Source: Bolinopsis microptera (taxonomy: Eukaryota > Ctenophora > Tentaculata > Lobata > Bolinopsidae). From it: a DNA stretch of 64,000 nt. Each line of letters opens with the position of its first letter. The stretch's first letter is position 1. Shown one piece after another: positions 7,231 through 52,868 of the stretch. A model generated the notes under the pieces. That model ran no database searches. It worked only from the letters and a program-made list of their open reading frames with translations, and had not been told where the DNA came from. Made by a program: the position numbers and the translations under genes. Where the stretch lies: assembly GCF_026151205.1 (NCBI RefSeq), contig NC_087081.1:12668340-12732339 (forward strand), given 5' to 3'.

Positions 7231-10200
7231 TTTGACAACAGCTTTCTGCTGTGAGCTTCCTCCGACCGAAATCAAACTTCCAGCACCTCAATCGTGTCAA
7301 ATAGGGTCTAATAGACTGACTAAATGGTTGCGGGTGAGATATTCATTCAAAATTATAAAATTTCGGTCCTGGAAATTTCATCTTCAAAAACTGAAATGGG
7401 ACAGAAATTGGGACAGTATGATTTTTCAATTTTCATCCGGATTTTGACTTCCAATACCCCAATTTGGTTTCGAACCATCATCAATTAACTGACCAATTGG
7501 TCTCTGAGCAAAAAATCCACCCAATCTGTCAAATTTGTGTTCAGAAAGTTTCATATTTTAAAATGGGACAGAAGTTGGAAAATATGAATTTTCGTTTTGT
7601 TAAGCTTTCTTCAGTGAGCTTCCTCCGACCGAAATCAAACTTTCAGCAGCTCAGTTGTGTCAAATAGGGTCTATTGTTGACTGACTATAACTAATTGGTT
7701 GCAGGTGAGAAATTCAGTCAAAACTGTAAAATTTCGGCCCTGGAAATTTCAGCTACAAAAACTGAAAATGGGACAGAGTATGGGACAGTATGATTTTCCA
7801 ATTTTTTTAGAGATTATGACTTCCAGTACCCCGATTTGGTTTTATACCATCATCAATTAACTGACTAATTGGTCTGTGGGCAAAAATTTCATCCAATCTG
7901 TCAAATGTGTGTTCAGAAATTTTCATGTCTGAAAATGGGACAGAGTTTTGAAAATACAACTTTTCGTTTTGTTAAGATTTCTGATGTGAGCTTCCTCCGA
8001 TCCGAATCAAAATTCTAACACCTCAATCCTGTCATTTGGGATCTATAGTTGACTGACTAATTGGTTGCAGGTCAGAAATTCGGTCGAAACTGTAAAATTT
8101 CGGCCCTGGAAATTTCAGCTTCAAAAACTGAAAATGGGACAGAGTATGGGACAGTATGATTTTCCAATTTTCTTCGAGATTTTGACTTCCAGTACCCCAA
8201 TATGGTTTCATACCATCATCAATTAACTGACTAATTGGTCTGTGGGCAAAAATTTCATCCAATCTGTCAAATGTGTGTTCAGAAAGTTTCATATTTTAAA
8301 ATGGGACAGAAGTTGGAAGATATGAATTTTCGTTTTGTTAAGCTTTCTTCTGTGAGCTTCCTCCGACTGAAATCAAACTTTCAGCACCTCAGTTGTGTCA
8401 AATAGGGTCTATTGTTGACTGACTAATTGGTTGCAGGTCAGAAATTCGGTCGAAACTGTAAAATTTCGGCCCTGGAAATTTCAGCTTCAAAAACTGAAAA
8501 TGGGACAGAGTATGGGACAGTATGATTTTCCAATTTTTTTAGAGATTTTGACTTCCAGTACCCCAATTTGGTTTCATACCATCATCAATTAACTGACTAA
8601 TTGGTCTGTGGGCAAAAATTTCATCCAATCTGTCAAATGTGTGTTCAGAAAGTTTCATATCTGAAAATGGGACAGAGTTTTGAAAATACAACTTTTCGTT
8701 TTGTTAAGATTTCTGCTGTGAGCTTCCTCCGATCCGAATCAAACTATCAGCGCCTCGATCGTGTCATTTGGGGTCTATAGTTGGCTGACTAATTGGTTGC
8801 AGGTCAGAAATTCGGTCGAAACTGTAAAATTTCGGCCCTGGAAATTTCAGCTTCAAAAACTGAAAATGGGACAGAGTATGGGACAGTATGATTTTCCAAT
8901 TTTTTTAGAGATTTTGACTTCCAGTACCCCAATTTGGTTTCATACCATCATCAATTAACTGACTAATTGGTCTGTGGGCAAAAATTTCATCCAATCTGTC
9001 AAATGTGTGTTCCGAAATTTTCATATCTGAAAATGGGACAGAGGTTTAAAATACAACTTTTCGTTTTGTTAAGATTTCTGCTGTGAACTTCCTCCGATCC
9101 GAATCAAACTTCCAGCGCCTCAATCGTTTCATTTGGGGTCTATAGTTGACTGACTAATTGGTTGCAGGTCAGAAATTCGGTCGAAACTGTAAAATTTCGG
9201 CCCTGGAAATTTCAGCTTCAAAAACTGAAAATGGGACAGAGTATGGGACAGTATGATTTTCCAATTTTTTTAGAGATTTTGACTTCCAGTACCCCAATTT
9301 GGTTTCATACCATCATCAATTAACTGACTAATTGGTCTGTGGGCAAAAATTTCATCCAATCTGTCAAATGTGTGTTCAGAAATTTTCATATCTGAAAATG
9401 GGACAGAGGTTTAAAATACAACTTTTCGTTTTGTTAAGATTTCTGCTGTGAACTTCCTCCGATCCGAATCAAAATTCTAACACCTCAATCCTGTCATTTG
9501 GGATCTATAGTTGACTGACTAATTGGTTGCAGGTCAGAAATTCGGTCGAAACTGTAAAATTTCGGCCCTGGAAATTTCAGCTTCAAAAACTGAAAATGGG
9601 ACAGAGTATGGGACAGTATGATTTTCCAATTTTCTTCGAGATTTTGGCTTCCAGTACCCCAATTTGGTTTCATACCATCATCAATTAACTGACTAATTGG
9701 TCTGTGGGCAAAAATTTCATCCAATCTGTCAAATGTGTGTTCAGAAATTTTCATATCTGAAAATGGGACAGAGTTTTGAAAATACAACTTTTCGTTTTGT
9801 TAAGATTTCTGCTGTGAGCTTCCTCCGATCCGAATCAAAATTCTAACACCTCAATCCTGTCATTTGGGATCTATAGTTGATTGACTAATTGGTTGCAGGT
9901 CAGAAATTCGGTCGAAACTGTAAAATTTCGGCCCTGGAAATTTCAGCTTCAAAAACTGAAAATGGGACAGAGTATGGGACAGTATGATTTTCCAATTTTT
10001 TTAGAGATTTGGACTTCCAGTACCCTAATTTGGTTTCATACCATCATTAATTAACTGACTAATTGGTCTGTGGGCAAAAATTTCATCCAATCTGTAAAAT
10101 GTGAGTTCAGAAATTTTAATATCTGAAAATGGGACAGAGTTTTGAAAATACAACTTTTCGTTTTGTTAAGATTTCTGCTGTGAGCTTCCTCCGATCCGAA

Positions 10201-13200
10201 TCAAACTTCCAGCGCCTCGATCGTTTCATTTGGGGTCTATAGTTGACTGACTAATTGGTTGCAGGTCAGAAATTCGGTCGAAACTGTAAAATTTCGGCCC
10301 TGGAAATTTCAGCTTCAAAAACTGAAAATGGGACAGAGTATGGGACAGTATGATTTTCCAATTTTTTTAGAGATTTTGACTTCCAGTACCCCAATTTGGT
10401 TTCATACCATCATCAATTAACTGACTAATTGGTCTGTGGGCAAAAATTTCATCCAATCTGTCAAATGTGTGTTCAGAAATTTTCATATCTGAAAATGGGG
10501 CAGAGGTTTAAAATACAACTTTTCGTTTTCTGCTGTGAACTTCCTCCGATCCGAATCAAAATTCTAACACGTCAATCCTGTCATTTGGGATCTATAGTTG
10601 ACTGACTAATTGGTTGCAGGTCAGAAATTCGGTCGAAACTGTAAAATTTCGGCCCTGGAAATTTCAGCTTCAAAAACTGAAAATGGGACCGAGTATGGGA
10701 CAGTATGATTTTCCAATTTTTTTAGAGATTTTGACTTCCAGTACCCCAATTTGGTTTCATACCATCATCAATTAACTGACTAATTGGTCTGTGGGCAAAA
10801 ATTCCATCCAATTTGTCAAATGTGTGTTCAGAAATTTTCATATCTGAAAATGGGACAGAGTTTTGAAAATACAACTTTTCGTTTTGTTAAGATTTCTGCT
10901 GTGAGTTTCCTCCGACCTGAATCAAACTTCCAGCGCCTCGATCGTGTCATTTGGGGTCTATAGTTTACTGACTAATTGGTTGCAGGTCAGAAATTCGGTC
11001 GAAACTGTAAAATTTCGGCCCTGGAAATTTCAGCTTCAAAAACTGAAAATGGGACAGAGTATGGGACAATATGATTTTCCAACTTTTTTAGAGATTTCGA
11101 CTTCCAGTACCCCAATATGGTTTCATACCATCATCAATTAACTGACTAATTGGTCTGTGGGCAAAAATTCCATCCAATCTGTCAAATGTGTGTTCAGAAA
11201 TTTTCATATCTGAAAATGGGACAGAGTTTTGAAAATACAACTTTTCGTTTTGTTAAGATTTCTGCTGTGAGCTTCCTCCGATCCGAATCAAAATTCTAAC
11301 ACCTCAATCCTGTCATTTGGGATCCATAGTTGACTGACTAATTGGTTGCAGGTCAGAAATTCGGTCGAAACTGTAAAATTTCGGCCCTGGAAATTTCAGC
11401 TTCAAAAACTGAAAATGGGACAGAGTATGGGACAGTATGATTTTCCAATTTTCTTCGAGATTTTGACTTCCAGTACCCCAATTTGGTTTCATACAATCAT
11501 CAATTAACTGACTTATTGGTCTGTGGGCAAAAATTTCATCCAATTTGTCAAATGTGTGTTCAGAAATTTTCATATCTGAAAATGGGACAGAGTTTTGAAA
11601 ATACAAATTTTTCGTTTTGTTATGATTTCTGTTGTGAGTTTCCTCCGACCTGAATCAAACTTCCAGCGCCTCGATCGTGTCATTTGGGGACTATAGATGA
11701 CTGACTAATTGGTTGCAGGTCAGAAATTCGGTCGAAACTGTAAAATTTCGGCCCTGGAAATTTCAGCTTCAAAAACTGAAAATGGGACCGAGTATGGGAC
11801 AGTATGATTTTCCAATTTTTTTAGAGATTTTGACTTCCAGTACCCCAATTTGGTTTCATACCATCATCAATTAACTGACTAATTGGTCTGTGGGCAAAAA
11901 TTTCATCCAATCTGTCAAATGTGTGTTCAGAAATTTTCATATCTGAAAATGGGACAGAGTTTTGAAAATACAAATTTTTCGTTTTGTTATGATTTCTGTT
12001 GTGAGTTTCCTCCGACCTGAATCTAACTTCCAGCGCCTCGATCGTGTCATTTGGGGACTATAGATGACTGACTAATTGGTTGCAGGTCAGAAATTCGGTC
12101 GAAACTGTAAAATTTCGGCCCTGGAAATTTCAGCTTCAAAAACTGAAAATGGGACAGAGTATGGGACAGTATGATTTTCCAATTTTTTCGAGATTTTGAC
12201 TTCCAGTACCCCAATTTGGTTTCATACAATCATCAATTAACTGACTTATTGGTCTGTGGGCAAAAATTTCATCGAATTTGTCAAATGTGTGTTCAGAAAT
12301 TTTCATATCTGAAAATGGGACAGAGTTTTGAAAATACAACTTTTCGTTTTGTTAAGATTTCTGCTGTGAGCTTCCTCCGACCCGAATCAAACTATCAGCG
12401 CCTCGATCGTGTCATTTGGGGTCTATAGTTGACTGACTAATTGGTTGCAGGTAAGAAATTCGGTCGAAACTGTAAAATTTCGGCCCTGGAAATTTCAGCT
12501 TCAAAAATTGAAAATGGGACAGAGTATGGGACAGTATGATTTTCCAATTTTTTTAGAGATTTTGACTTCCAGTACCCCAATTTGGTTTCATACCATCATC
12601 AATTAACTGACTAATTGGTCTGTGGGCAAAAATTTCATCCAATCTGTCAAATGTGTGTTCAGAAATTTTCATATCTGAAAATGGGACAGAGTTTTGAAAA
12701 TACAAATTTTTCGTTTTGTTATGATTTCTGTTGTGAGTTTCCTCCGACCTGAATCAAACTTCCAGCGCCTCGATCGTGTCATTTGGGGACTATAGATGAC
12801 TGACTAATTGGTTGCAGGTCAGAAATTCGGTCGAAACTGTAAAATTTCGGCCCTGGAAATTTCAGCTTCAAAAACTGAAAATGGGACAGAGTATGGGACA
12901 GTATGATTTTCCAATTTTTTCGAGATTTTGACTTCCAGTACCCCAATTTGGTTTCATACAATCATCAATTAACTGACTTATTGGTCTGTGGGCAAAAATT
13001 TCATCGAATTTGTCAAATGTGTGTTCAGAAATTTTCATATCTGAAAATGGGACAGAGTTTTGAAAGTACAACTTTTCGTTTTGTTAAGATTTCTGCTGTG
13101 AGCTTCCTCCGACACGAATCAAACTATCAGCGCCTCGATCGTGTCATTTGGGGTCTATAGTTGACTGACTAATTGGTTGCAGGTCAGAAATTCGGTCGAA

Positions 13201-16200
13201 ACTGTAAAATTTCGGCCCTGGAAATTTCAGCTTCAAAAACTGAAAATGGGACAGAGTATGGGACAGTATGATTTTCCAATTTTTTTAGAGATTTTGACCT
13301 TCAGTACCCCAATTTGGTTTCATACCATCATCAATTAACTGACTAATTGGTCTGTGGTCAAAAATTTCATCCAATCTGTCAAATGTGTGTTCAGAAATTT
13401 TCATATCTGAAAATGGGACAGAGTTTTGAAAATACAACTTTTCGTTTTGTTAAGATTTCTGCTTTGAGCTTCTTCCGATCCGAATCAAAATTCTAACACC
13501 TCAATCCTGTCATTTGGGATCTATAGTTGACTGACTAATTGGTTGCAGGTCAGAAATTCGGTCGAAACTGTAAAATTTCAGCCCTGGAAATTTCAGCTTC
13601 AAAAACTGAAAATGGGACAGAGTATGGGACAGTATGATTTTCCAATTTTTTTAGAGATTTTGACTTCCACTACCCCAATTTGGTTTCATACCATCATCAA
13701 TTAACTGACTAATTGGTCTGTGGGCAAAAATTTCATCCAATCTGTCAAATGTGTGTTCAGAAATTTTCATATCTGAAAATGGGACAGAGTTTTGAAAATA
13801 CAAATTTTTCGTTTTGTTATGATTTCTGTTGTGAGTTTCCTCCGACCTGAATCAAACTTCCAGCGCCTCGATCGTGTCATTTGGGGACTATAGATGACTG
13901 ACTAATTGGTTGCAGGTCAGAATTTCGGTCGAAACTGTAAAATTTCGGCCCTGGAAATTTCAGCTTCAAAAACTGAAAATGGGACAGAGGGGACAGTATG
14001 ATTTTCCAATTTTTTCGAGATTTTGACTTCCAGTACCCCAATTTGGTTTCATACAATCATCAATTAACTGACTTATTGGTCTGTGGGCAAAAATTTCATC
14101 CAATTTGTCAAATGTGTGTTCAGAAATTGTAATATCTGAAAATGGGACAGAGTTTTGAAAATACAACTTTTCGTTTTGTTAAGATTTCTGCTGTGAGCTT
14201 CCTCCGATCCGAATCAAAATTCTAACACCTCAATCCTGTCATTTGGGATCTATAGTTGACTGACTAATTGGTTGCAGGTCAGAAATTCGGTCGAAACTGT
14301 AAAATTTCGGCCCTGGAAATTTCAGCTTCAAAAACTGAAAATGGGACAGAGTATGGGACAGTATGATTTTCCAATTTTTTTAGAGATTTTGACCTTCAGT
14401 ACCCCAATTTGGTTTCATACCATCATCAATTAACTGACTAATTGGTCTGTGGGCAAAAATTTCATCCAATTTGTCAAATGTGTGGTTAGAAATTTTCATA
14501 TCTGAAAATGGGACGGAGTTTTGAAAATACAACTTTTCGTTTTGTTAAGATTTCTGCTGTGAGCTTCCTCCGATCCGAATCAAAATTCTAACACCTCAAT
14601 CCTGTCATTTGGGATCTATAGTTGACTGACTAATTGGTTGCAGGTCAGAAATTCGGTCGAAACTGTAAAATTTCAGCCCTGGAAATTTCAGCTTCAAAAA
14701 CTGAAAATGGGACAGAGTATGGGACAGTATGATTTTCCAATTTTTTTAGAGATTTTGACCTTCAGTACCCCAATTTGGTTTCATACCATCATCAATTAAC
14801 TGACTAAATGGTCTGTGGGCAAACATTTCATCCAATTTGTCAAATGTGTGTTCAGAAATTTTCATATCTGAAAATGGGACAGAGTTTTGAAAATACAACT
14901 TTTCGTTTTGTTAAGATTTCTGCTGTGAGCTTCCTCCGATCCGAATCAAAATTCTAACACCTCAATCCTGTCATTTGGGATCTATAGTTGACTGACTAAT
15001 TGGTTGCAGGTCAGAAATTCGGTCGAAACTGTAAAATTTCAGCCCTGGAAATTTCAGCTTCAAAAACTGAAAATGGGACAGAGGGGACAGTATGATTTTC
15101 CAATTTTTTTAGAGATTTTGACCTTCAGTACCCCAATTTGGTTTCATACCATCATCAATTTACTGACTAATTGGTCTGTGGGCAAAAATTTCATCCAATT
15201 TGTCAAATGTGTGTTCAGAAATTGTAATATCTGAAAATGGGACAGAGTTTTGAAAATACAACTTTTCGTTTTGTTAAGATTTCTGCTGTGAGCTTCCTCC
15301 GATCCGAATCAAAATTCTAACACCTCAATCCTGTCATTTGGGATCTATAGTTGACTGACTAATTGGTTGCAGGTCAGAAATTCGGTCGAAACTGTAAAAT
15401 TTCGGCCCTGGAAATTTCAGCTTCAAAAACTGAAAATGGGACAGAGTATGGGACAGTATGATTTTCCAATTTTTTTAGAGATTTTGACCTTCAGTACCCC
15501 AATTTGGTTTCATACCATCATCAATTAACTGACTAATTGGTCTGTGGGCAAAAATTTCATCCAATTTGTCAAATGTGTGTTCAGAAATTGTAATATCTGA
15601 AAATGGGACAGAGTTTTGAAAATACAACTTTTCGTTTTGTTAAGATTTCTGCTGTGAGCTTCCTCCGATCCGAATCAAAATTCTAACACCTCAATCCTGT
15701 CATTTGGGATCTATAGTTGACTGACTAATTGGTTGCAGGTCAGAAATTCGGTCGAAACTGTAAAATTTCGGCCCTGGAAATTTCAGCTTCAAAAACTGAA
15801 AATGGGACAGAGTATGGGACAGTATGATTTTCCAATTTTTTTAGAGATTTTGACCTTCAGTACCCCAATTTGGTTTCATACCATCATCAATTAACTGACT
15901 AATTGGTCTGTGGGCAAAAATTTCATCCAATTTGTCAAATGTGTGTTTAGAAATTTTCATATCTGAAAATGGGACGGAGTTTTGAAAATACAACTTTTCG
16001 TTTTGTTAAGATTTCTGCTGTGAGCTTCCTCCGATCCGAATCAAAATTCTAACACCTCAATCCTGTCATTTGGGATCTATAGTTGACTGACTAATTGGTT
16101 GCAGGTCAGAAATTCGGTCGAAACTGTAAAATTTCAGCCCTGGAAATTTCAGCTTCAAAAACTGAAAATGGGACAGAGTATGGGACAGTATGATTTTCCA

Positions 16201-17172
16201 ATTTTTTTAGAGATTTTGACCTTCAGTACCCCAATTTGGTTTCATACCATCATCAATTAACTGACTAAATGGTCTGTGGGCAAACATTTCATCCAATTTG
16301 TCAAATGTGTGTTCAGAAATTTTCATATTTTCCTCCGACCCGAATCAAACTATCAGCGCCTCGATCGTGTCATTTGGGGTCTATAGTTGACTGACTAATT
16401 GGTTGCAGGTAAGAAATTCGGTCGAAACTGTAAAATTTCGGCCCTGGAAATTTCAGCTTCAAAAATTGAAAATGGGACAGAGTATGGGACAGTATGATTT
16501 CCAATTTTTTTAGAGATTTTGACTTCCAGTACCCCAATTTGGTTTCATACCATCATCAATTAACTGACTAATTGGTCTGTGGGCAAAAATTTCATCCAAT
16601 CTGTCAAATGTGTGTTCAGAAATTTTCATATCTGAAAATGGGACAGAGTTTTGAAAATACAACTTTTCGTTTTGTTAAGAATTTTGCTGTGAGCTTCCTC
16701 CGATCCGAATCGAAATTCTAACACCTCAATCCTGTCATTTGGGATCTATAGTTGACTGACTAATTGGTTGCAGGTCAGAAATTCGGTCGAAACTGTAAAA
16801 TTTCGGCCCTGGAAATTTCAGCTTCAAAAACTGAAAATGGGACAGAGTATGGGACAGTATGATTTTCCAATTTTTTTAGAGATTTTGACTTCCAGTACCC
16901 CAATTTGGTTTCATACCATCATCAATTAACTGACTTATTGGTCTGTGGGCAAAAATTTCATCCAATCTGTCAAATGTGTGTCCAGAAATTTTCATATTTA
17001 AAAGTGGGACAGAAATTGGAAAATACGAATTTTAATTTTTTTTTCTTTAGCTTTCTGCTGTGATCTTCCTCTGACCGAAATCAAACCTCCAGCACCTCGA
17101 TCATGTCAAATGGGGTCTATATTTAATACTAACTAATTGGTTGCAGGTGAGAAATTCAGTCAAAGCTGTTGT
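7231..17172. repeat. ~366-bp satellite array, about 27 copies
   Basis: The anchor TTGGTTGCAG recurs at 8061, 8427, 8793, 9158, 9523, 9889, 10255, 10610 and 10976, then onward with the same step, giving a unit of 365-366 bp. Each unit is a diverged dimer: a ~174-bp half and a ~192-bp half both begin CTGACTAATTGGT and both contain CTGAAAATGGGACAGAG. Inner copies are very similar. The copies at both edges (7231-7690 and 16970-17172) are diverged. Some units have indels: one is shortened near 10525, a 6-bp loss occurs near 13989 and again near 15083, and a larger loss joins the two halves at 16327. All open frames inside are incidental. Confidence 0.97.
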
Positions 17173-25178: not shown

Positions 25179-25324
25179 GGGGACCCTAATGATCCAAATA
25201 CTTATCGACCAATATCCATATTCCATACTCCCCTTACTTGGGAAATGTATAGAATACTTTGTTAACCAACAGCTTACCGAGAACATTGAAACAAATAAAC
25301 TGCTCACCAACCAGTTATGGAAGT
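25179..25324 (+). pseudogene. LINE reverse-transcriptase fragment
   Basis: GDPNDPNTYRPISI, then after a frameshift LGKCIEYFVNQQLTENI and NKLLTNQ. This is the NYRPISIL block of LINE reverse transcriptases (CR1/jockey-like). It is truncated on both sides and frameshifted, hence dead. Confidence 0.8.
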
Positions 25325-25325
25325 G

Positions 25326-26012
25326 ACAATGACTTGGTGAATGTTGTCCAGAAATACGAAGGTCACTTGAGACGAACTCGTAGTTTTAGTGAAAGTGAGA
25401 GTCAGCAAGCCACAAACTCCACCACAGCACCGAAAGGAAAAAATAGACTGTTTCAGTTTGTGAAGAAAACGGGATCTACGCTTAGATCTCGCCTCGTTAC
25501 ATCTAAACAGCTTGCCTTAGGTGCTAAACATGGTAAAACTGAACCCTGTCACAGAAGAAACTGCAAGTGTTGTAAAATGATCATGAGTAAGGACTCCATC
25601 ACATCAAATGGCAAAAAGATCAAATCAGCCCCTGGTTGTTGCAAGACCTATAACATCATCTATCTTGTACAGTGTTCGATTTGTAAGAAAAACTATGTGG
25701 GTAGGACTATTAATAGCTTGCATAAAAGGATGGACGGACACAGGTCCAAATTTTATGAAATCATTGATGGTAGAACATTTGATATTACTAGTGATGAGTA
25801 TAGCCTAGGAGTTCACTTGATTGACTACGGTTTAGGAGTACATTATACATACAGATTTTAATGAAACTTTTATAACTTTTATTTTAGAGAATTGCAGTCC
25901 CAGTACACTTGAAGTAAAAGAAAATAACTACATACATTTGCTTAATTCTCTTAGACCTTTTGGCCTTAATACTGTCAATCCCTTTGGATTACCTATATTC
26001 CATAAACCTTAA
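25326..26012 (+). pseudogene. GIY-YIG endonuclease domain of a Penelope-like retroelement
   Basis: About 180 codons encode a basic Ser-rich linker, a zinc-binding-like cluster (CHRRNCKCCKM), then YNIIYLVQC and YVGRTINSLHKRMDGHRS. These are the two strand motifs of the GIY-YIG nuclease fold followed by its conserved Arg and His. The frame stops at 25859. A shifted frame continues with NNYIHLLNSLRPFGLNTV, the usual C-terminal block, to about 26012. In Penelope-like elements this nuclease follows the reverse transcriptase. Here only a fragment from a different (LINE) RT precedes it, so two elements are probably nested or joined. Confidence 0.75.
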
Positions 26013-34450: not shown

Positions 34451-36243
34451 GGGTCAGGGTCAGGGCCAGGGTCAGGGTCAGGGTCAGGGTCAGGGTCAGG
34501 GTCAGGGTCAGGGTCAGGGTCAGGGTCAGGGTCAGGGTCAGGGTCAGGGTCAGGGTCAGGGTCAGGGTCAGGGTCAGGGTCAGGGTCAGGGTCAGGGTCA
34601 GGCTCAGGGTCAGGGCTCAGGGTCAGGCCTCAGGCCTCAGGGTCAGGCCTCAGGGTCAGGCCTCAGGGTCAGGGTCAGGGTCAGGGTCAGGTTCAGGGTC
34701 AGGGTCAGGGTCAGGGTCAGGGTCAGGGTCAGGGTCAGGGTCAGGCCTCAGGGTCAGGGTCAGGGTCAGGGTCAGGGTCAGGGTCAGGGTCAGGGTCAGG
34801 GTCAGGGTCAGGGTCAGGGTCAGGGTCAGGGTCAGGGTCAGGGTCAGGGTCAGGGTCAGGGTCAGGGTCAGGGTCAGGGTCAGGGTCAGGGTCAGGCCTC
34901 AGGCCTCAGGGTCAGGCCTCAGGGTCAGGCCTCAGGGTCAGGCCTCAGGCCTCAGGGTCAGGCCTCAGGGTCAGGCCTCAGGGTCAGGGTCAGGGTCAGG
35001 GTCAGGCCTCAGGGTCAGGGTCAGGGTCAGGGTCAGGGTCAGGGTCAGGGTCAGGGTCAGGGTCAGGCCTCAGGGTCAGGGTCAGGGTCAGGGTCAGGGT
35101 CAGGGTCAGGGTCAGGGTCAGGGTCAGGGTCAGGGTCAGGGTCAGGGTCAGGGTCAGGCTCAGGGTCAGGGTCAGGGTCAGGGTCAGGGTCAGGGTCAGG
35201 GTCAGGGTCAGGGTCAGGGTCAGGGTCAGGGTCAGGGTCAGGGTCAGGGTCAGGGTCAGGGTCAGGCCTCAGGCCTCAGGGTCAGGCCTCAGGGTCAGGC
35301 CTCAGGGTCAGGCCTCAGGGTCAGGCCTCAGGGTCAGGCCTCAGGGTCAGGCCTCAGGGTCAGGCCTCAGGGTCAGGCCTCAGGGTCAGGCCTCAAGGTC
35401 AGGCCTCAGGGTCAGGGTCAGGGTCAGGGTCAGGGTCAGGGTCAGGGTCAGGGTCAGGGTCAGGGTCAGGGTCAGGGTCAGGGTCAGGGTCAGGGTCAGG
35501 GTCAGGGTCAGGCCTCAGGGTCAGGGTCAGGGTCAGGCCTCAGGGTCAGGGTCAGGGTCAGGGTCAGGGTCAGGGTCAGGGTCAGGGTCAGGGTCAGGGT
35601 CAGGGTCAGGGTCAGGGTCAGGGTCAGGGTCAGGGTCAGGGTCAGGGTCAGGGTCAGGGTCAGGGTCAGGGTCAGGGTCAGGGTCAGGGTCAGGGTCAGG
35701 GTCAGGGTCAGGGTCAGGGTCAGGGTCAGGGTCAGGGTCAGGGTCAGGGTCAGGGTCAGGCCTCAGGCCTCAGGGTCAGGCCTCAGGGTCAGGCCTCAGG
35801 GTCAGGCCTCAGGGTCAGGCCTCAGGGTCAGGCCTCAGGGTCAGGCCTCAGGGTCAGGCCTCAGGGTCAGGCCTCAGGGTCAGGCCTCAGGTCAGGCCTC
35901 AGGGTCAGGGTCAGGGTCAGGGTCAGGGTCAGGGTCAGGGTCAGGGTCAGGGTCAGGGTCAGGGTCAGGGTCAGGGTCAGGGTCAGGGTCAGGGTCAGGG
36001 TCAGGGTCAGGCCTCAGGGTCAGGGTCAGGGTCAGGGTCAGGGTCAGGGTCAGGGTCAGGGTCAGGGTCAGGGTCAGGGTCAGGGTCAGGGTCAGGGTCA
36101 GGGTCAGGGTCAGTAAAGGGTCAGGGTCAGGGTCAGGGTCAGGGTCAGTAAAGGGTCAGGGTCAGGGTCAGGGTCAGTAAAGGGTCAGGGTCAGTAAAGG
36201 GTCAGGGTCAGTAAAGGGTCAGGGTCAGTAAAGGGTCAGGGTC
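34451..36243. repeat. (GGGTCA)n satellite with GGCCTC variant blocks
   Basis: About 1.8 kb of GGGTCA hexamers, equal to TCAGGG. Blocks of a 12-bp variant (GGGTCAGGCCTCA) appear in at least three clusters (about 34620-34680, 34890-34990, 35260-35410 and again 35755-35905). The last ~130 bp change to GGGTCAGTAAA-type units before the TTAGGG tract. Confidence 0.97.
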
Positions 36244-36420
36244 AGTAAAGGGTTAGGGTTAGGGTTAGGGTTAGGGTTAGGGTTAGGGTTAGGGTTAGGG
36301 TTAGGGTTAGGGTTAGGGTTAGGGTTAGGGTTAGGGTTAGGGTTAGGGTTAGGGTTAGGGTTAGGGTTAGGGTTAGGGTTAGGGTTAGGGTTAGGGTTAG
36401 GATAAGGGTTAGGGTTAGGG
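36244..36420 (+). repeat. Interstitial telomeric repeat (TTAGGG)n, about 28 copies
   Basis: Uninterrupted TTAGGG from 36253 to 36420, except for one degenerate pair near 36400. The G-rich strand is the + strand. Single-copy sequence follows directly, so this is internal in this assembly and not a chromosome end. Confidence 0.97.
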
Positions 36421-36701
36421 TTAATTGTATTAAATTATATTGTCGGGGGGCTAATTGTCGGGGGTCAATTGTCGGGGGGTCAATTGTTGCCCACCCGTTT
36501 AAATACTATCTGCAGCTAATGTACATGATTCTAAAACTAATATAAATAATTCTAAAACTCAAATTAAAGTCTTTCGGTTTAATATAGTATTGCTCAATGA
36601 GATGGTGTGGAAATCGCTCATAAAACATTAGTAATGTTTGTGCCTACTATTAAAAGCCAGGGAGTGTTTTAGATGAGATTTGTAGTGAAATCAACAAGAA
36701 A

Positions 36702-45000: not shown

Positions 45001-48000
45001 TCAAAACGCGCAGTTTTGCTAATACCTCAGTTAAATTTTTCAAAATTGTCCCACATTCAAACGCCCCCCCCCCCCCCCCCCCCCCCCCCCCGCACAGCGA
45101 GGTCAGCGGGGCCCTTAGTTACGCCACTGCTGTCACGTGTCTAATTGTGGCTAAGATCAAACAGTATTAGAAGAAAATACAAAATAACGAGGAAAATGGT
45201 ACTTGAAACTTACTGGCAACGAGAAACTGAGCAATGTTGAGACGATGCTGAGTGTGACACCATTTGTTCTGCCAGTTACACCCTGTTACCTCCGTATTAT
45301 TCTGAGGAAAACAATTAGTTGTAAGTTAGTTAATTAACTAATTAACACAATATAACCGTTATCCTGAAATTACAAACCGGATAATTGATAGGGCTTTTTA
45401 ATGACTTCAGACACTATTTTCAAACCAGTATTAAATGGGTATACTCATATTGGCAGAAACAATTTGATTAAAGAATCCGGAGTGAATAAGTTAAAAAAAC
45501 AAGTTCTTTACCGGATTAGAAATGGAAACATTGCTGAGAGGAGTCCACTGTATCCGGGGTATATAGCCTGGTCCTACTGGATAGAAGAGAATGTACGCAA
45601 ATGCGCTCATTGAGAACGCAATCCCCATCATCTTGCGCTCACCAAACCTCTTTCCTGTAATTATTTACGCTAAGTAACTGCGTTTTCAAGTTACCTTACA
45701 ATCTGATATAAATAAGAGCAATTTTTGAGGGAAGGAAGTAGAATAATCCCAACATAAATAACATTCTTTTCGCCTCACATAAAACGAGGTATTTTCAGAG
45801 AAGGAATGTAGATAGTAGAATGTAGTAGTAGTAGTTGTCAAATGTCGACCAATTCGTAGAAATGTGATAATGGGAAAATACCAAGAATATGTTCATACGA
45901 CTCACTAAATATGCGAAAAAAGTCATTACAACGAACAATAAATTCGGACAAAGTTCAAATAACACTAATAAATCTATGGCATTATCTTACCGAGAGGTGT
46001 AGCAATAGCAAAAGTCATGAAGGAGAACACGGAGGTGCAGGTTAAGAATATGCTGCTGTATTTGATAGCTTCTGTCTGGGACAACCTGGGTAATAAGAGG
46101 GGTTTTGAGTGATTAATTAATTAATTATAGGTATTAGTTATGTGATTATAGGCATTAATTATGTGATAATAGGCATTATTGAATTTCCAGATAGCTTATT
46201 TGTAAGAAGTCTAGTCTATGCAAGACTCAAGGGAACTGAAGGAATCTTAAAAACAAAGTGACACTGTAGTCTATAAGTGAAACTTGGAAATAAAGTGAAA
46301 TAAAGGTGATAGAGGGACTAACCCGAGTTCAGCCTGTATAATGGGAGTATTGAGTGTCTCCATAACAGTGAAGCTGAGCATTGCAATGTAAAACAGAGCG
46401 TTACAAATCACAATTCCAGACCATTTGACCCTCAGAGCTGAAATTGTACGGTTATTAAAACTTATTGCTGGACGGAGAATAAGGAAAAACAGATACACGT
46501 ATTTCCATTCGTCTCTCTGAAGCGTAATGACCTGATGATCTCTGAACTCTTTAAGGGTCTTTAACTGAAACTATGAAAGAAAGGGAAGTTGAAAAATAAA
46601 TTAGAAGTGAAAGTGAAAGTGAAAGTGAAAGTGAAAGGGACTAACTGGCCATTTCGGAGCTCTGAACAATGGAGTTGACCATGAACTCTGCTGGGGTTGC
46701 GTCCTCTCTGAACCACACAGCCACAATCACCATGTTTACTGTTATCAATATTGCTGAAATAGAGTGAAATGTAAAATTAAATTCTAAAATATTTAATTAT
46801 GTACTTTTGTTTTACTGAAATTTGTGTCTAGACTGAATAATGTGTTAGTATCATGAATACCGAGGTTAGCTACATCAGAATCATTGTTTTTATTATGTGA
46901 ACAAAGGACACGGCCAAAGTCAGGTAGGCTATAATTAAACAACTGCATTCGTCAAATACACAGAATGTGCGTACATTCTTATGTGACAGGATATGATGTT
47001 ATTCTAACCTTACAAATATCCCCCCTGAAATGACATGGAACTATTGTGGAACTTCCAACTTCCTCCTTGTCCTTGAAGTCTAAATATCTAAACAAAGCTT
47101 CAGACTCCCTGGACTAATCTAATCCACAATTAGATATCCAAAGTGATCTTATATTACATTTTACTGTAAAGCTGTAACTAGGAATGAAAGGATAATAATC
47201 CGATGTATACTAGCTACCAATACAGTTTCTAATTTTGTCCAAATCCACCGTGTCAAGTCTGGATTACAGTATTTTACTGTGAAGGGAAGTTACAAAGTAT
47301 TATAGTTATAACTTATACCTGACAGATAGGCAGGGAGAGTGTACTGTGATACCTCCCAGCTCTCATAACAGAACCCTTTCTGTACCAGTGACGTCACCAA
47401 AGCAGTGACGTCACAGTATTATAGTTATAACTTATACCTGACAGATAGGCAGGGAGAGTGTACTGTGATACCTCCCAGCTCTCATAACAGAACCCTTTCT
47501 GTACCAGTGACGTCACCAAAGCAGTGACGTCACAGTATTATAGTTATAACTTATACCTGACAGATAGGCAGGGAGAGTGTACTGTGATACCTCCCAGCTC
47601 TCATAACAGAACCCTTTCTGTACCAGTGACGTCACCAAAGCTAAACCTGAACAAAATCTCGTGTTAGTGAAACACACTATCAGTCTGTGCACTTGATAAG
47701 CAGATAAGTGATTATTATTTGTGGAGAAATGTTATCTTGTAACGTGATTCAATTAGAAATCAAACAGGTGCTGTACATGGACACTGGATAGGTCCTAACT
47801 CCTATCCTTGTTAATACACACCAGCCTGAGCTTACCTGGACCTATGATGAAACCAGCAGCCTGAGCTAACCTGAACCTATAATGAAACCAGCAGCCTGAG
47901 CTAACCTGGACCTATAATGAAACCAGCAGCCTGATCTTACCTGGACCTATAATGAAACCAGCAGCCTGAGCTAACCTGAACCTATAATGAAACCAGCAGC

Positions 48001-51000
48001 CTGAGCTAACCTGGACCTATAATGAAACCAGCAGCCTGAGCTAACCTGGACCTATAATGAAACCAGCAGCCTGAGCTTACCTGGACCTATACTGAAACCA
48101 GCAGCATGAGCTTACCTGGACCTATGATGAAACCAGCAGCCTGAGCTTACATGGACTTATAATGACACCAGCAGCCTGAGCTTACCTGGAGCTATAATGA
48201 AACCAGCACCCTGAGCTTACCTGGACCTCTAATGAAACCAGCAGCCTGAGCTAACCTGGACCTATGATGAAACCAGCAGCCTGAGCTAACCTGGACCTAT
48301 AATGAAACCAGCAGCCTGAGCTAACCTGGACCTATAATGAAACCAGCAGCCTGAGCTTACCTGGACCTATACTGAAACCAGCAGCATGAGCTTACCTGGA
48401 CCTATGATGAAACCAGCAGCCTGAGCTTACATGGACTTATAATGACACCAGCAGCCTGAGCTTACCTGGAGCTATAATGAAACCAGCACCCTGAGCTTAC
48501 CTGGACCTCTAATGAAACCAGCAGCCTGAGCTAACCTGGACCTATGATGAAACCAGCAGCCTGAGCTTACCTGGACCTATGATGAAACCAGCAGCCTGAG
48601 CTTACCTGGACCTATGATGAAACCAGCAGCCTGAGCTTACCTGGACCTATAATGAAACCAGCAGCCTGAGCTTACCTGGACCTATAATGAAACCAGCAGC
48701 CTGAGCCATGGAACCTTTGCTAACCACAGCAGTCCTCTCGTCTAATGAGGTAACTGTACCAAGATGCGATCTTGCTAGAGCGATACAACCTGAAATATAT
48801 GGAGATGTTAACTGTTAAGTCATATCAGCTACATCAGTAACGTGCTAAACTCAGCATAACTCTGACGAGTAAAGTGGCGGATATGTAGTGATGTGACAGT
48901 GGAGGAATGGTGTACGTGATGTATAGTTTGTATACATACCACATGTGTTTAAAATACATATAATCTAGTTCATTATGTACGTGATGTATACATACCACAT
49001 GTGTTTAAAATACATATAATCTAGTTCATTATGTACGTGACAATAAATGACATGTATTTTGTGATTCTGTAACAGTTTCAGATTTCCGGTTGTGTCATGA
49101 ATCACGTGATAGTAAATCTATGATAGGAACACAGTGTGCTGATCACTGAGCTAGATAATAACAGATAATACCAGATATATAAGTTAAATACGTATCGGGA
49201 AATGTGACCTAATACTGCAAATTCATAGAGTCCGCTGCTTTAATGGTATTTACACTGAGAGTCAAAATGTTGCAAAATTGTATCAAGTTCTCTTCTTTTT
49301 TTCTAGGAAATCGAACTGTTATGAATTCTACAGTAAAGTTTTGGAGAGGTTAATCTACGTTATAATATATTGAGCTCCTATTTTACATGCTTGAGATCAT
49401 AATTTACACGTGACGGCTATAAACCAATCAGTCGTTATCAATAACATTTAAGCTCTTCTCTGAGGAGTTTTCGCCTAAAACCAAGCAGAAAAGTTGATAC
49501 TTTAACTTGATAGTGCTTTAACGCACACCAGAAAGCAAGAAGCCCTAGATCATATCTATGTTCTATATATTGTTAAGATTACATTTACAAATATTTTGAA
49601 TTTTCAGTTTTGACTGTCAGTAAGGATGTAGAACTTTCTTAGCTGTTCGATAACAAGCGTAACAACCAATTTCTTATCAGTTACCTATCACCAAATAAGG
49701 TTACAAACTGTTCCATCTACAAAACTGATATTAAAACTAGCACCAGGAATGTACCGGCTTTATCGGATATAACAGAGAAGAAATGAGGGACTCAGGAATT
49801 CTTAATGATGATGTATTATTGAATAATTATCATGAAATATTTGTTATTCATAATGACTTAATAATGAGCTTAACGTATCTTGAGGGTCTTCTGTTTTACC
49901 AAGCTGGGTAATTCAAAACCATCATGTCTCTCATGAACAAATGAAGTTATAGGCATTAAATGAAACGTATCATTTGCATGTGATAACAAACTTAACGGCT
50001 ATTTTAAAAGCAAGTTCAAAAATCACCTCTCCACCATTACCCTTCCTCACAACTAATAAACTAATTAACTGATTAACATACTAATTGATTAATTACTAAC
50101 CAGCACCCCCGCCGCTGATGACACGCCCAATCACCACAACCCATAAAGCTCCAGTAGGAGATGAGTCCTTTACCAGACACGCTAGGGCGTAGAGAAGATT
50201 ACCAACTACTCCAATGAACATGGTAAGTTGAACTGGCAGTGTTATTTTACCCCTGAGAAGAACGTAAGTTGAACTGGCAGTGTTATTTTACCCCTGAGAA
50301 GAAGGTAAGTTGAACTGGCAGTGTTATTTTACCCCTGAGAAGGTAAGTTGAACTGGCAGTGTTATTTTACCCCTGAGAAGAAGGTAAGTTGAACTGGCAC
50401 TGGTGTTATTTTATCTCTGAGAAGAAGGTAAGTTGAACTGGTAGTGTTATTTTACCCCTGAGAAGAAGGTAAGTTGAACTGGTAGTGTTATTTTACCCCT
50501 GAGAAGAAGGTAAGTTGAACTGGTAGTGTTATTTTACCCCTGAGAAGAACGTAAGTTGAACTGGCAGTGTTATTTTACCCCTGAGAAGAACGTAAGTTGA
50601 ACTGGCAGTGTTATTTTACCCCTGAGAAGAAGGTAAGTTGAACTGGTAGTGTTATTTTACCCCTGAGAAGAAGGTAAGTTGAACTGGCACTGGTGTTATT
50701 TTATCTCTGAGAAGAAGGTAAGTTGAACTGGCAGTGTTATTTTACCCCTGAGAAGAAGGTAAGTTGAACTGGTAGTGTTATTTTACCCCTGAGAAGAAGG
50801 TAAGTTGAACTGGTAGTGTTATTTACCCCTGAGAGACTGGGTAAGAGGTAAGTTGAACTGGTAGTGTTATTTTACCCCTGAGAAGAAGGTAAGTTGAACT
50901 GGTAGTGTTATTTTACCCCTGAGAAGAAGGTAAGTTGAACTGGCAGTGTTATTTTACCCCTGGGAAGAAGGTAAGTTGAACTGGTAGTGTTATTTTACCC

Positions 51001-52868
51001 CTGAAAAGATGGTAAGTTGAACTGGCAGTGTTATTTTACCCCTGAGAAGAAGGTAAGTTGAACTGGTAGTGTTATTTTACCCCTGAGAAGAAGGTAAGTT
51101 GAACTGGCAGTGTTATTTTACCCCTGGGAAGATGATATAATATTAGTATTTATAGTAGGGTACAATTACTGCGCTGTGTACGTGACTTCTTTAAGTGTAT
51201 TGTAGGTTTGCAGCGATTACATTTAATTAGTTTATGGAATGTGTTTAACGTTTATCACATTTAGAAGTGTTACTGTTGGACAAGTGGTATGAAATTTTAG
51301 TGGGAAGGAATTTAATATAGGATGATAGATTACTCAGCAGAAACAGAGCCAATCAAATTACAGGGTGGGCCAAAAGTCGGTGGGCATGTGTTGGCCTTGA
51401 TAGCTCCGCCGTGTTTTATATTTGAGAGCTGTTGCTTTGCAGATGGCATACTGTACCTTCTGGTTCGAGGATTCCGTCGTCAAAATTTGAAAATTCGAAT
51501 ATTTAAAACCACGCCCATTCAAAATTAAAACACCTATATTGTTCTCTCTGAACATGCTGGACGCCTGATTTTTTCAGAAACGGTAGATTAGTAAATGTTG
51601 CATCTGTTCTGAAAAAATGCATTTTGTGTATCTCGTTAACAAAATTGACTGGGTGATTATGTGACACCGTGACACGACACCTTAACTGGGCAGCCTTAAC
51701 GATTCCCATAATGTTTAATGGGGTGGTTAACGGGGTGACCTTATCACGTGATTAGGTAAGCCAATCACCTGATCACACGTAATGAATTAACTCGTTATGC
51801 TTCGTATCTCGGCCATACGAGAAGCTACAACTGTAATTTGTTCAGGACAAACGTAATTCGAATGGCCAAACACAATTCAATAAAATTTAGCTCGTTCCGA
51901 CTATCCAAACTATCAAATAAATGTAAAAATGAACCTTCATTTGAAAAAAAATGTACTCTAATATTTTTCGATTTGATAAATTCCCCGAACCAGTGGTGGT
52001 AGTAAGTCGTACCAGAAAGAATTATTTCAATTAGTCACTCAGTGACTGAGCTATTAAGGCCAACGTATGCCCACTGACTTTTGGCCCACCCTGTATTTGC
52101 TACACAGCACTAGTTTGAAAGTATCAGCTACTTTTTATGATGTCAACACTACTATATTTAGACAAGGATTAAGTCAGGTGTGGCTGCAGCCAGAGTTATT
52201 ATTTATAACAAATAACTTGGGTTACAGCCTAACCTGCATACCTGATATCTGACTCACAAATCAGAGCAGTTCTAGGTCATCTACAGATTAGAAATTACCC
52301 ATTATCAAGGGAAATTTGGATTAAGTTTTTTGAGAAGCAGTTTCCTACCTTACTGTGGACCATTTTCCTACGAGAGGAGAAGCAAGAAGTTGACCGAATG
52401 AATACCCAGCTGCTGCAAACCCCAGAAATGAATAGTTAACAGATGGGCTGATGTGTTGTAAATAGGGCCAAAGCGAGGGCAGCAGAATTGAAAACCCTGA
52501 AAATATAATTATTAACTGATTTTAGGACAGGTTGCCAAATAATCTAATAAACTTTCAAGTAACTTCGCAAAGTTTCGATCGCACTACCTTCCTATAAATT
52601 GCACAATAGTACTGAACTTTACCTCCTGTTTCTCTATGAACATTATCGATTTAACTCATTATTATTACCTGTGCTGTTTAGAAATAAAACGAGGTACATT
52701 ATTCTGATACTCCTCCATCTTTTCTGCTCCGCTACCATGAAATAACTGCAGAGTTTACAGGATTATTTTACATAATTGTATGCAAATACATTCAGAGAAG
52801 ATTTTGTGAATTGTAAGAATTAGAAAAAATTAGTAGACTAACCTGCTTTCTTCGCCATTCATTGTCAT
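41918..52868 (-). CDS. MFSD8: MFSD8/CLN7-like lysosomal MFS transporter, 14 exons, complete
   Basis: Twelve-helix major facilitator. In vertebrates MFSD8 is a lysosomal membrane protein whose loss causes CLN7 disease. Exons in gene order: 52868-52843, 52745-52669, 52496-52349, 50252-50101, 48789-48676, 47640-47557, 46753-46646, 46437-46323, 46085-45991, 45654-45512, 45301-45214, 43969-43887, 43726-43632, then either 42977-42854 or 42041-41918. All phases agree, giving 483 residues (human about 518). Landmarks: KRWRSIRIMYL, GFSILLPSLWPYLQ, GYSFGQLLASPLVGKWS, VIGRVISGGGA, ARSHLGTVTSLDERTAVVSK, AAGFIIGP, TVMETLNTPIIQAELG, GKRFGERKMMG, GCNWQNKWC, SYPLGVVLLLSRTSKILGP and GILTAVGSFSRAVGPAIF. The luminal loop keeps NVS and NNT glycosylation sequons. 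The start is the first ATG (MTMNGEES). Introns carry junction-derived minisatellites, a mariner-type and a hAT-type MITE. It is an ortholog or close paralog. Confidence 0.95.
42126..42188. repeat. Perfect 31-bp inverted repeat, 1-nt centre, between alternative last exons
   Basis: 42126-42156 is the exact reverse complement of 42158-42188. Each arm itself holds a smaller palindrome (GTCATACGTTGTATGAC). On the transporter strand it ends 84 nt before the acceptor of last exon B. Confidence 0.95.
42854..42977 (-). CDS. MFSD8: Alternative last exon A of the MFSD8-like gene
   Basis: Acceptor TTATTTCAG, 124 nt, entering in phase 2 and ending in TGA. It encodes the last helix and tail (VYVLAPALSIAPILVFLG, then ETFESRHEKLQRDLFT). 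It is the same length, phase and layout as exon B at 41918-42041. TTTATT (AATAAA on -) near 42341 and 42437 could polyadenylate it before exon B. Confidence 0.85.
42979..43066. repeat. ~21-bp minisatellite beside last exon A acceptor
   Basis: About four copies of a unit like AAATAACGGACATTAAAACG, starting at the acceptor of exon 42854-42977 and running into the intron. Confidence 0.8.
44374..44459. repeat. 18-bp inverted repeat enclosing a second hairpin
   Basis: TAGATGATTGTGAACACG (44374-44391) pairs perfectly with 44442-44459. The 50-nt loop contains TGCCAA CTCAG TTGGCA, a nested stem. It is in the intron between exons 43969 and 45214 of the transporter. Confidence 0.85.
44850..45129. mobile_element. 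hAT-type MITE, 280 bp, with 31-bp poly-C
   Basis: Perfect 12-bp terminal inverted repeats CAGTGGCGTAAC / GTTACGCCACTG flanked by the 8-bp direct repeat CTGTCACG (44842-44849 and 45130-45137). Both features are diagnostic of hAT transposons. The interior is noncoding, with two GGCGCC(C)CTCC units and a C run from about 45063. It lies in a transporter intron. Confidence 0.9.
46598..46640. repeat. (GTGAAA)n tract beside transporter donor
   Basis: About six GTGAAA units lie right next to the donor of exon 46646-46753 in the intron. Confidence 0.85.
47298..47641. repeat. 119-bp triplication covering a transporter exon
   Basis: Three almost identical 119-bp copies (the donor side CTGACAG starts at 47319, 47438 and 47557). 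Each contains the whole coding part of exon 47557-47640 plus its donor and some intron. Only the 5'-most copy (47557-47640) is preceded by a real acceptor (GGTTTAG). The other two are preceded by GACGTCACTG and cannot be entered the same way. Confidence 0.95.
47825..48710. repeat. 35-bp minisatellite made from an exon-donor junction, 25 copies
   Basis: On the transporter strand each unit equals the last ~24 nt of exon 48676-48789 (coding AAGFIIGP) plus the donor CCAG|GTAAGC or CCAG|GTTAGC and a few intron bases. The array starts in the exon itself and extends into the downstream intron. A 280-bp block (8 units) is duplicated inside it (compare 48091 with 48371). Confidence 0.95.
48905..49045. 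repeat. ~65-bp tandem duplication in transporter intron
   Basis: TGTACGTGATGTATA..ACCACATGTGTTTAAAATAC is present twice, with the start of a third copy at about 49030. No coding role. Confidence 0.8.
50223..51133. repeat. 41-bp minisatellite made from an acceptor-exon junction, ~22 copies
   Basis: On the transporter strand each unit holds the pyrimidine-rich acceptor CTTCTCAG|GGG and the first ~30 nt of exon 50101-50252 (coding GKITLPVQL). The array extends upstream into the intron. Only the copy nearest the exon keeps a usable frame: entering at the next one brings TAA within the following unit. Confidence 0.95.
51361..52093. mobile_element. Mariner/Tc1-type MITE, 733 bp
   Basis: 38-bp terminal inverted repeats (CAGGGTGGGCCAAAAGTC at 51361; matching reverse complement at 52056-52093) flanked by TA on both sides. 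TA target plus CAGGGTG-type ends indicate the Tc1/mariner superfamily. No transposase frame. It lies in the intron between transporter exons 3 and 4. Confidence 0.88.

Follow-up and report, generated by a model that had tools for sequence, protein, structure and literature searches.

The closest described system is in amphioxus. The available text of PMC3087553 describes "mirages," which are minisatellite-like tandem duplications across an exon-intron boundary, in Adh3, BflGb6, BflGb9, and other genes. Either boundary can be affected, and RT-PCR suggested that splicing is regular. The length of a mirage is unstable, even somatically. According to the same excerpt, the units are 150-160, 157, or 10-72 bp long, and BflGb6 has 3-6 units (PMC3087553). 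In the human gene IFI6 (also known as G1P3 or 6-16), a minisatellite supplies several splice donors (Turri 1995, as cited in the accessible portions of PMC4526556 and PMC2572611). Downstream repeat units of IFI6 are used as donors, which gives three mRNA species (PMC4526556, same portion). In a potato RdRp gene, a tandem duplication across a boundary created a new spliced intron (excerpt of PMC4974935). Human segmental duplications contain internal tandem repeats, with units of around 30 bp, that alter gene structure, and some of these are at an exon-intron boundary. As far as the available part of PMC2812944 covers them, they are found in recent primate paralogues and are tied to novel introns or exon extensions. 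Finally, minisatellites have been linked to splicing before: in C. elegans, CeRep25B shows enrichment close to multiple alternative splicing decisions (PMC4039745, in the passages available).

Here we describe three arrays of this kind in one gene of the ctenophore Bolinopsis microptera. We analyzed a stretch of 64,000 nucleotides (the window), which includes a gene for an MFS transporter (Table 1). All 18 of its inter-exon junctions are AG/GT, and the exons merge into a single open frame. The translated product matches the Pfam family MFS_1 (PF07690) with E=1.2e-22. The open frame and this match indicate that the exon ends and the strand are correct. MFS_1 is the level that Pfam supports; the translation reads like that of MFSD8. 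A search of solved structures with the protein, at E up to 0.001, gave zero matches. We also looked for a paralogue that would give the ancestral state of the gene, and none was among the candidates scored: in a protein search of the genome, 11 of 11 were the gene's own exons. Separately, intron 3 contains a segment of about 730 bp (window 51361-52093) that is flanked by the inverted repeat CAGGGTGGGCCAAAAGTC and looks like a MITE-type insertion.

Table 1. The MFS transporter gene, its arrays, and arrays that span or probably span exon ends elsewhere in the genome. Positions are in the window unless a contig is given; TRF is Tandem Repeats Finder.
Feature	Position	Strand	Structure	Basis or match
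MFS transporter gene	45512..52868	-	ten exons, 354-codon open frame; gene 3' end outside the model	junctions and translation
Exon 4	50101..50252	-	acceptor end arrayed	junctions, unit alignment
Acceptor array	50222..51132	-	41 bp x 22.0 copies	92% matches (TRF)
Exon 5	48676..48789	-	donor end arrayed	junctions, unit alignment
Donor array	47822..48706	-	35 bp x 25.3 copies	93% matches, 0% indels (TRF)
Exon 6	47557..47640	-	84 nt; copy with usable acceptor GTTTAG|CTTTGG	junctions
119-bp array	47296..47641	-	119 bp x 2.9 copies	100% matches (TRF)
L029			donor; urocanase exon	Pfam E=4.7e-14, above cut-off
L027		opposite to motif (motif antisense)	donor; LIM exon	Pfam 1.6e-7, above cut-off
L028			acceptor	adjoining exon Pfam 0.0051, below cut-off; arrayed exon has a chance-level match
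L036			acceptor; MFS-like	adjoining exon Pfam 0.066, below cut-off
L037			acceptor	exon without a Pfam family match
L030			probable; the acceptor AG is common to the units, with 1 exon base at most	no Pfam match
L033			probable	no Pfam match
L031	G000:C1:1624900-1627300		probable; 67-72-bp array	adjoining exon sulfotransferase 0.0005, below cut-off
L047			acceptor; kinesin; 49-bp unit made up of 21 nt exon and 28 nt intron; 4.7 copies or more	
L049			kinesin donor; 21-bp unit	72% matches

A first-pass annotation of the window had claimed that three exon-intron junctions of this gene were independently turned into tandem arrays, which spread only into the intron side and leave the protein frame intact. 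This held up. Tandem Repeats Finder recovers all three arrays, with scores of 692 (119-bp), 1525 (35-bp), and 1521 (41-bp), against a reporting threshold of 50. When we aligned the units to the exon ends, the arrays were found to contain real junction sequence, in the orientation of the gene. Each unit joins exon and intron sequence from a real junction (31+4, 31+10, and 84+35 nt for exons 5, 4, and 6). The three arrays have different units and affect different junctions, as expected if they arose independently, and the 354-codon frame stays open in spite of the expansion toward the intron.

The donor array of exon 5 has 25 full units, as the annotation had claimed, and each comprises the last 31 nt of the exon followed by GTAA or GTTA. 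The annotation had listed GTAAGC and GTTAGC as the donors; these account for 15 and 9 of the 25, and the other one is GTAAGA. In units 8 and 16, CAT|GT is found in place of CAG|GT. The donor at 48675 keeps the frame, and the other 24 are decoys. Units 13-20 are an exact copy of units 5-12, which points to an active minisatellite in which a block was duplicated.

The acceptor array of exon 4 also agrees with its original description, of about 22 units that each carry a polypyrimidine tract, an AG, and the exon start. In the common unit, 10 nt of polypyrimidine tract and CAG are followed by 31 nt from the start of exon 4. Some units are of other sizes (38-49 nt), and there are variants that are specific to individual units. 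The array has 22 AGs, of which 21 are decoys; the last one, just before 50252, keeps the frame.

The claim that exon 6 is triplicated as a complete exon at 119-bp spacing was partly right. The array exists, and its unit is the 84-nt exon plus 35 nt of intron that carries the donor GTATAA, but copies 2 and 3 have TCACTG upstream where the real exon has GTTTAG. These copies are therefore exon-plus-donor segments that lack the acceptor AG, rather than whole exons that are competent for splicing. The perfect identity of the 119-bp copies and the exact eight-unit block in the donor array would fit with active turnover, in the one haplotype that was seen.

What would happen if a decoy were used? We substituted the alternative sites singly into the gene model and translated each result. 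Every decoy brought in a premature stop: all 24 donors at exon 5, all 21 acceptors at exon 4, and both donors at exon 6. Among the tested sites, the frame therefore survives only with those that are exon-proximal. In each array, the frame-keeping site is the most upstream donor or the most downstream acceptor. We also scored the donors of exon 5 using a small matrix that was built from the gene's ten true donors (including the one for exon 5). The true donor scored 11.2, while 22 of the 24 decoys scored 10.7-12.3 and the other two scored 6.6. Cells do seem to face a choice among many decoys, as had been proposed from the first inspection: there are extra donors that score well, and every decoy would lead to a stop. 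The cell presumably uses the site that is nearest to the body of the exon, as exon definition would predict.

Decoy donors and decoy acceptors differ in one respect. Segments that begin with GT and end with AG are present at 22 of the 24 steps of the donor array and at both of the 119-bp steps, versus 0 of the 21 acceptor units. On the donor side only, the duplicated segment carries AG|GT, which is what intron gain by AGGT tandem duplication calls for. In principle, then, a further round of splicing could correct a mis-chosen donor and restore the exact mRNA. Recursive splicing at juxtaposed acceptor-donor sites, as described in the available part of PMC8605326, is a parallel.

The arrays in the MFS gene are real, and their structure already has a name in the literature, so they are not new in kind. 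As in the mirages of amphioxus, insofar as the excerpt of PMC3087553 describes them, the units straddle a boundary, be it at a donor or at an acceptor, and AG or GT is present in many copies. Both types of boundary are affected here as well (the donors of exons 5 and 6 and the acceptor of exon 4). Unlike in amphioxus, the host is a ctenophore, three boundaries of one gene are affected, and there are up to 22-25 copies. Among the matches listed in a search of the open-licence literature, there was no report of mirages in ctenophores. As in IFI6, a minisatellite offers several donors at a single exon end, but here all 24 decoy donors lead to a premature stop. We rejected the idea that the decoys are meant for coding, as in IFI6, given the stops from all of the tested decoys. 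As in the potato RdRp gene, a duplication across a boundary copies the splice signals, and AG|GT is present in most of the donor units. Unlike in potato, an existing intron appears merely to have been lengthened. The internal repeats of human segmental duplications differ in that our gene has no paralogue among the 11 scored candidates, and its exons are unchanged.

To see these arrays in context, we searched the genome (264,652,675 bases in 232 contigs; G000 in our notation). An ionotropic glutamate receptor that it encodes matches the short ML032222a iGluR chains in the PDB (256 aa, 213.5-213.9 bits), where ML probably denotes Mnemiopsis leidyi; these scores are slightly below those of the top-ranked full-length kainate-2 receptors (875-942 aa, 222-228 bits), which fits a lobate ctenophore. 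This genome is minisatellite-rich: in 20 sampled 10-kb pieces, we found 36 arrays with a period of 15-200 and at least 2.5 copies. Three tandem copies of the donor 8-mer (CAGGTAAG) had 859 matches in a genome-wide pattern search, while the reversed motif had 24 matches, which sit at just two places in the genome. The CAGGTAAG triplets are found at seven places or more among the matches listed, which extend only to 1 Mb of contig C2. As single copies, the motif and its reverse had 9406 and 4407 matches, for a ratio of 2.1. In other words, arrays of the donor 8-mer exceed the control far beyond what the single-copy frequencies predict, as judged against one control motif. The acceptor analogue (TTTTCAGG) had 362 matches, versus 91 for its control, and most of the matches listed were from two places on C3. 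In a 200-kb sample, single copies of TTTTCAGG numbered 24, versus 4 for the control. Given this single-copy ratio and the clustering at two places on C3, no enrichment of the acceptor motif is shown. A genome-wide enrichment of acceptor-type arrays was thus not supported, as there was no clear excess once the single-copy frequency was considered.

We read 12 arrays outside the window, which were chosen by motif and are a biased set. They comprise the seven listed CAGGTAAG places, two clusters of single copies, and three of the four listed TTTTCAGG places. An exon end is spanned by five of the 12 (L027, L028, L029, L036, and L037) and probably by another three (L030, L031, and L033), while the other four do not span one (L026, L034, L035, and L038). 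For the seven CAGGTAAG places, the tally is three that span (L027, L028, and L029), one that probably does (L033), and three that do not (L026, L034, and L035). Matches to the urocanase, LIM, and Kelch families were above the Pfam cut-off, while phosphatase, MFS_1, and sulfotransferase were found only below it. Exon calls that lack above-cut-off support from Pfam rest on open frames and splice signals. From reading the translations, we take the arrayed exon of L028 to be synaptojanin-like, and we presume that SLC46 and GAL3ST are also among the products. L034 and L035 (at 25.44 and 25.73 Mb of C1) are in two similar Kelch-gene regions, which are copies of one region. In each, a CAGGTAAGGTTACCTAGGTAA array lies 43 nt downstream of a donor, and the two arrays hold 4 and 9 CAGGTAA motifs, respectively; this appears to be a duplicated region in which the length of the array has changed.

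In the arbitrarily placed sequence, which totals 200 kb, we found no clear case of an array at an exon end, based on reading one flank for 12 of the 36 arrays. The arrays, 53 with those from elsewhere, were ranked by a codon score that is weak and has low sensitivity (known exons score around 0-19, and the 95th percentile of the background is 10.8); the ranking covers the best 30 of the 53.

For a view that does not depend on the arrays, we surveyed genes that were chosen by family. We used the Pfam models for CCT and for kinesins to identify exons in 13 gene regions. The survey includes 59 exons, 92 inter-exon junctions, and 31.8 kb, and it covers 29 of 35 CCT places and 30 of 109 kinesin places among the matches listed. 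All of the regions are compact, which disfavors genes with long introns. Two arrays in the survey span an exon end (L047 and L049 in Table 1); the L047 junction, on the outermost side of the listed exons, is not counted among the 92. Random placement predicts 0.87 spanning arrays, and the array at L049, which our filter had dropped, adds 0.09, for a total of about 0.96 expected versus 2 seen. Arrays at boundaries are not rare in this genome, and the small survey needs no special process to account for them. In a CCT gene on C13, another pair of arrays ends just short of an acceptor. The first reaches the base before CAG; the second (L041:3149-4976), with 61 copies of a pyrimidine-rich 30-bp unit that contains CTAAC, ends 19 nt before the exon. 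The second reads as branch-point-like sequence without an AG.

Within the MFS gene itself, three of the four arrays with a period of at least 15 and at least 2.5 copies span junctions. If arrays were placed at random relative to the 18 junctions, the probability of three or more would be 0.0047, but this value should not be taken at face value because the gene was picked for its arrays.

We think it quite probable that these are ordinary minisatellites, or mirages, in which a splice junction was included by chance and which persist because splicing uses the exon-proximal site. The founding tandem duplication would have happened to span an exon-intron junction, and the number of units could then have grown by unequal exchange or slippage. 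Selection would have removed any array that broke the use of the exon-proximal site, and only growth toward the intron would have survived; the decoys would be tolerated by-products with no function of their own. What can be read directly in the DNA is the make-up of the units, the frame that stays intact, the duplicated block, and the stop for each tested decoy. The presence of the same structure in other genes of this genome, along with its richness in minisatellites, supports this explanation. So do the stops from all of the decoys, the gene survey, the features that fit active turnover, and the mirages published for amphioxus. Several observations count against it: most of the MFS gene's arrays are on junctions, arrays of the donor 8-mer are in excess, and the gene survey was small and limited to compact regions. 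Also, a rule of using the first AG would pick a decoy farther upstream in the acceptor array, which means that exon definition has to be strong. Another explanation is that splice junctions are mutational hotspots that found minisatellites, perhaps via transcription-linked nicks, R-loops, or AGGT microhomology. The excess of CAGGTAAG triplets over their reverse, when the single copies differ by only about twofold, would be explained by this, as would the arrays on junctions in the MFS gene, with the nominal probability given above. However, the excess is relative to a single control motif. At the seven CAGGTAAG places, just three arrays clearly span an exon end and one more probably does; of the remaining three, L034 and L035 are copies of one region, and at L027, which does span, the motif is antisense. 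The acceptor motif's excess is matched by its single copies and comes mostly from the two places on C3, the gene survey found two arrays where about one was expected, and the 12 flanks that we read in arbitrarily placed sequence had no clear case. Overall, we consider hotspots to be unlikely. We give slightly less credence still to a broader proposal: that junctions are the preferred birthplaces of minisatellites, with boundary arrays numbering in the hundreds or thousands, and that splicing at a wrong donor could be put right by a second, ratchet-like splice. Donor-side arrays would then buffer themselves and be a lasting supply of new introns.

The arrays might instead be functional, with decoys that tune the gene's output via nonsense-mediated decay or that sequester U1 or U2AF. 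A dial that works by poison splicing would require that decoys give stops, and every tested decoy does; nearly all of the decoy donors also score about level with the true donor. On the other hand, stops are the expected outcome of frame-shifting insertions that contain stop codons. And the same kind of array, with unrelated units, is found in unrelated genes (urocanase, LIM, and kinesins), as neutral events would predict. We found nothing that favors tuning or a sponge, and a function for the arrays is very unlikely, in our judgment. We see just as little reason to believe that the arrays are artefacts of assembly, with copy numbers that are wrong or arrays that do not exist. The copies of the 119-bp array are identical, which means that its copy number could be mistaken, and at L031 many units have single-base indels, as in poorly polished sequence. 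(The indels at L031 suggest either poor local polishing or decay.) But the donor array has no indels across 25 units and has structured variants, including the exact repeat of an eight-unit block; the acceptor array has its unit-specific variants; and the contigs are chromosome-scale, with lengths of 16.3-26.2 Mb for C1-C10 and C13. Furthermore, structures of this class have been reported independently from amphioxus (PMC3087553, available text).

Each array is a natural experiment, with many near-identical splice sites of which one keeps the protein. Donor and acceptor arrays run in opposite directions in this gene, about 4 kb of which would thus allow first-come-first-served to be told apart from exon definition within the same transcript. 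A ctenophore source implies that mirages are not a peculiarity of cephalochordates. Genomes like this one would allow the birth rate of mirages, their tolerance, and their contribution to intron gain to be measured.

The window has other repeats as well. A gene for a PP2A scaffold subunit (window 1-5600, + strand, identified by tblastn with human PPP2R1A) has short arrays of the GTAACCTG type in its introns, one of which begins 18 nt after a donor. Short repeats of the CAGGTAAC type near donors, both at window 4377-4522 (18 nt after) and at L034 and L035 (43 nt after), are close to junctions and do not span them. A 366-bp satellite with around 25 copies occupies 7243-16328. At 34451-36421, within a stretch that is 62% GC, there is a hexamer array of the GGGTCA type that spans about 2 kb, and in three frames this stretch runs for hundreds of codons without a stop. 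Last, an ORF at 25253-25861 on the + strand reads like the GIY-YIG end of a Penelope-like element.
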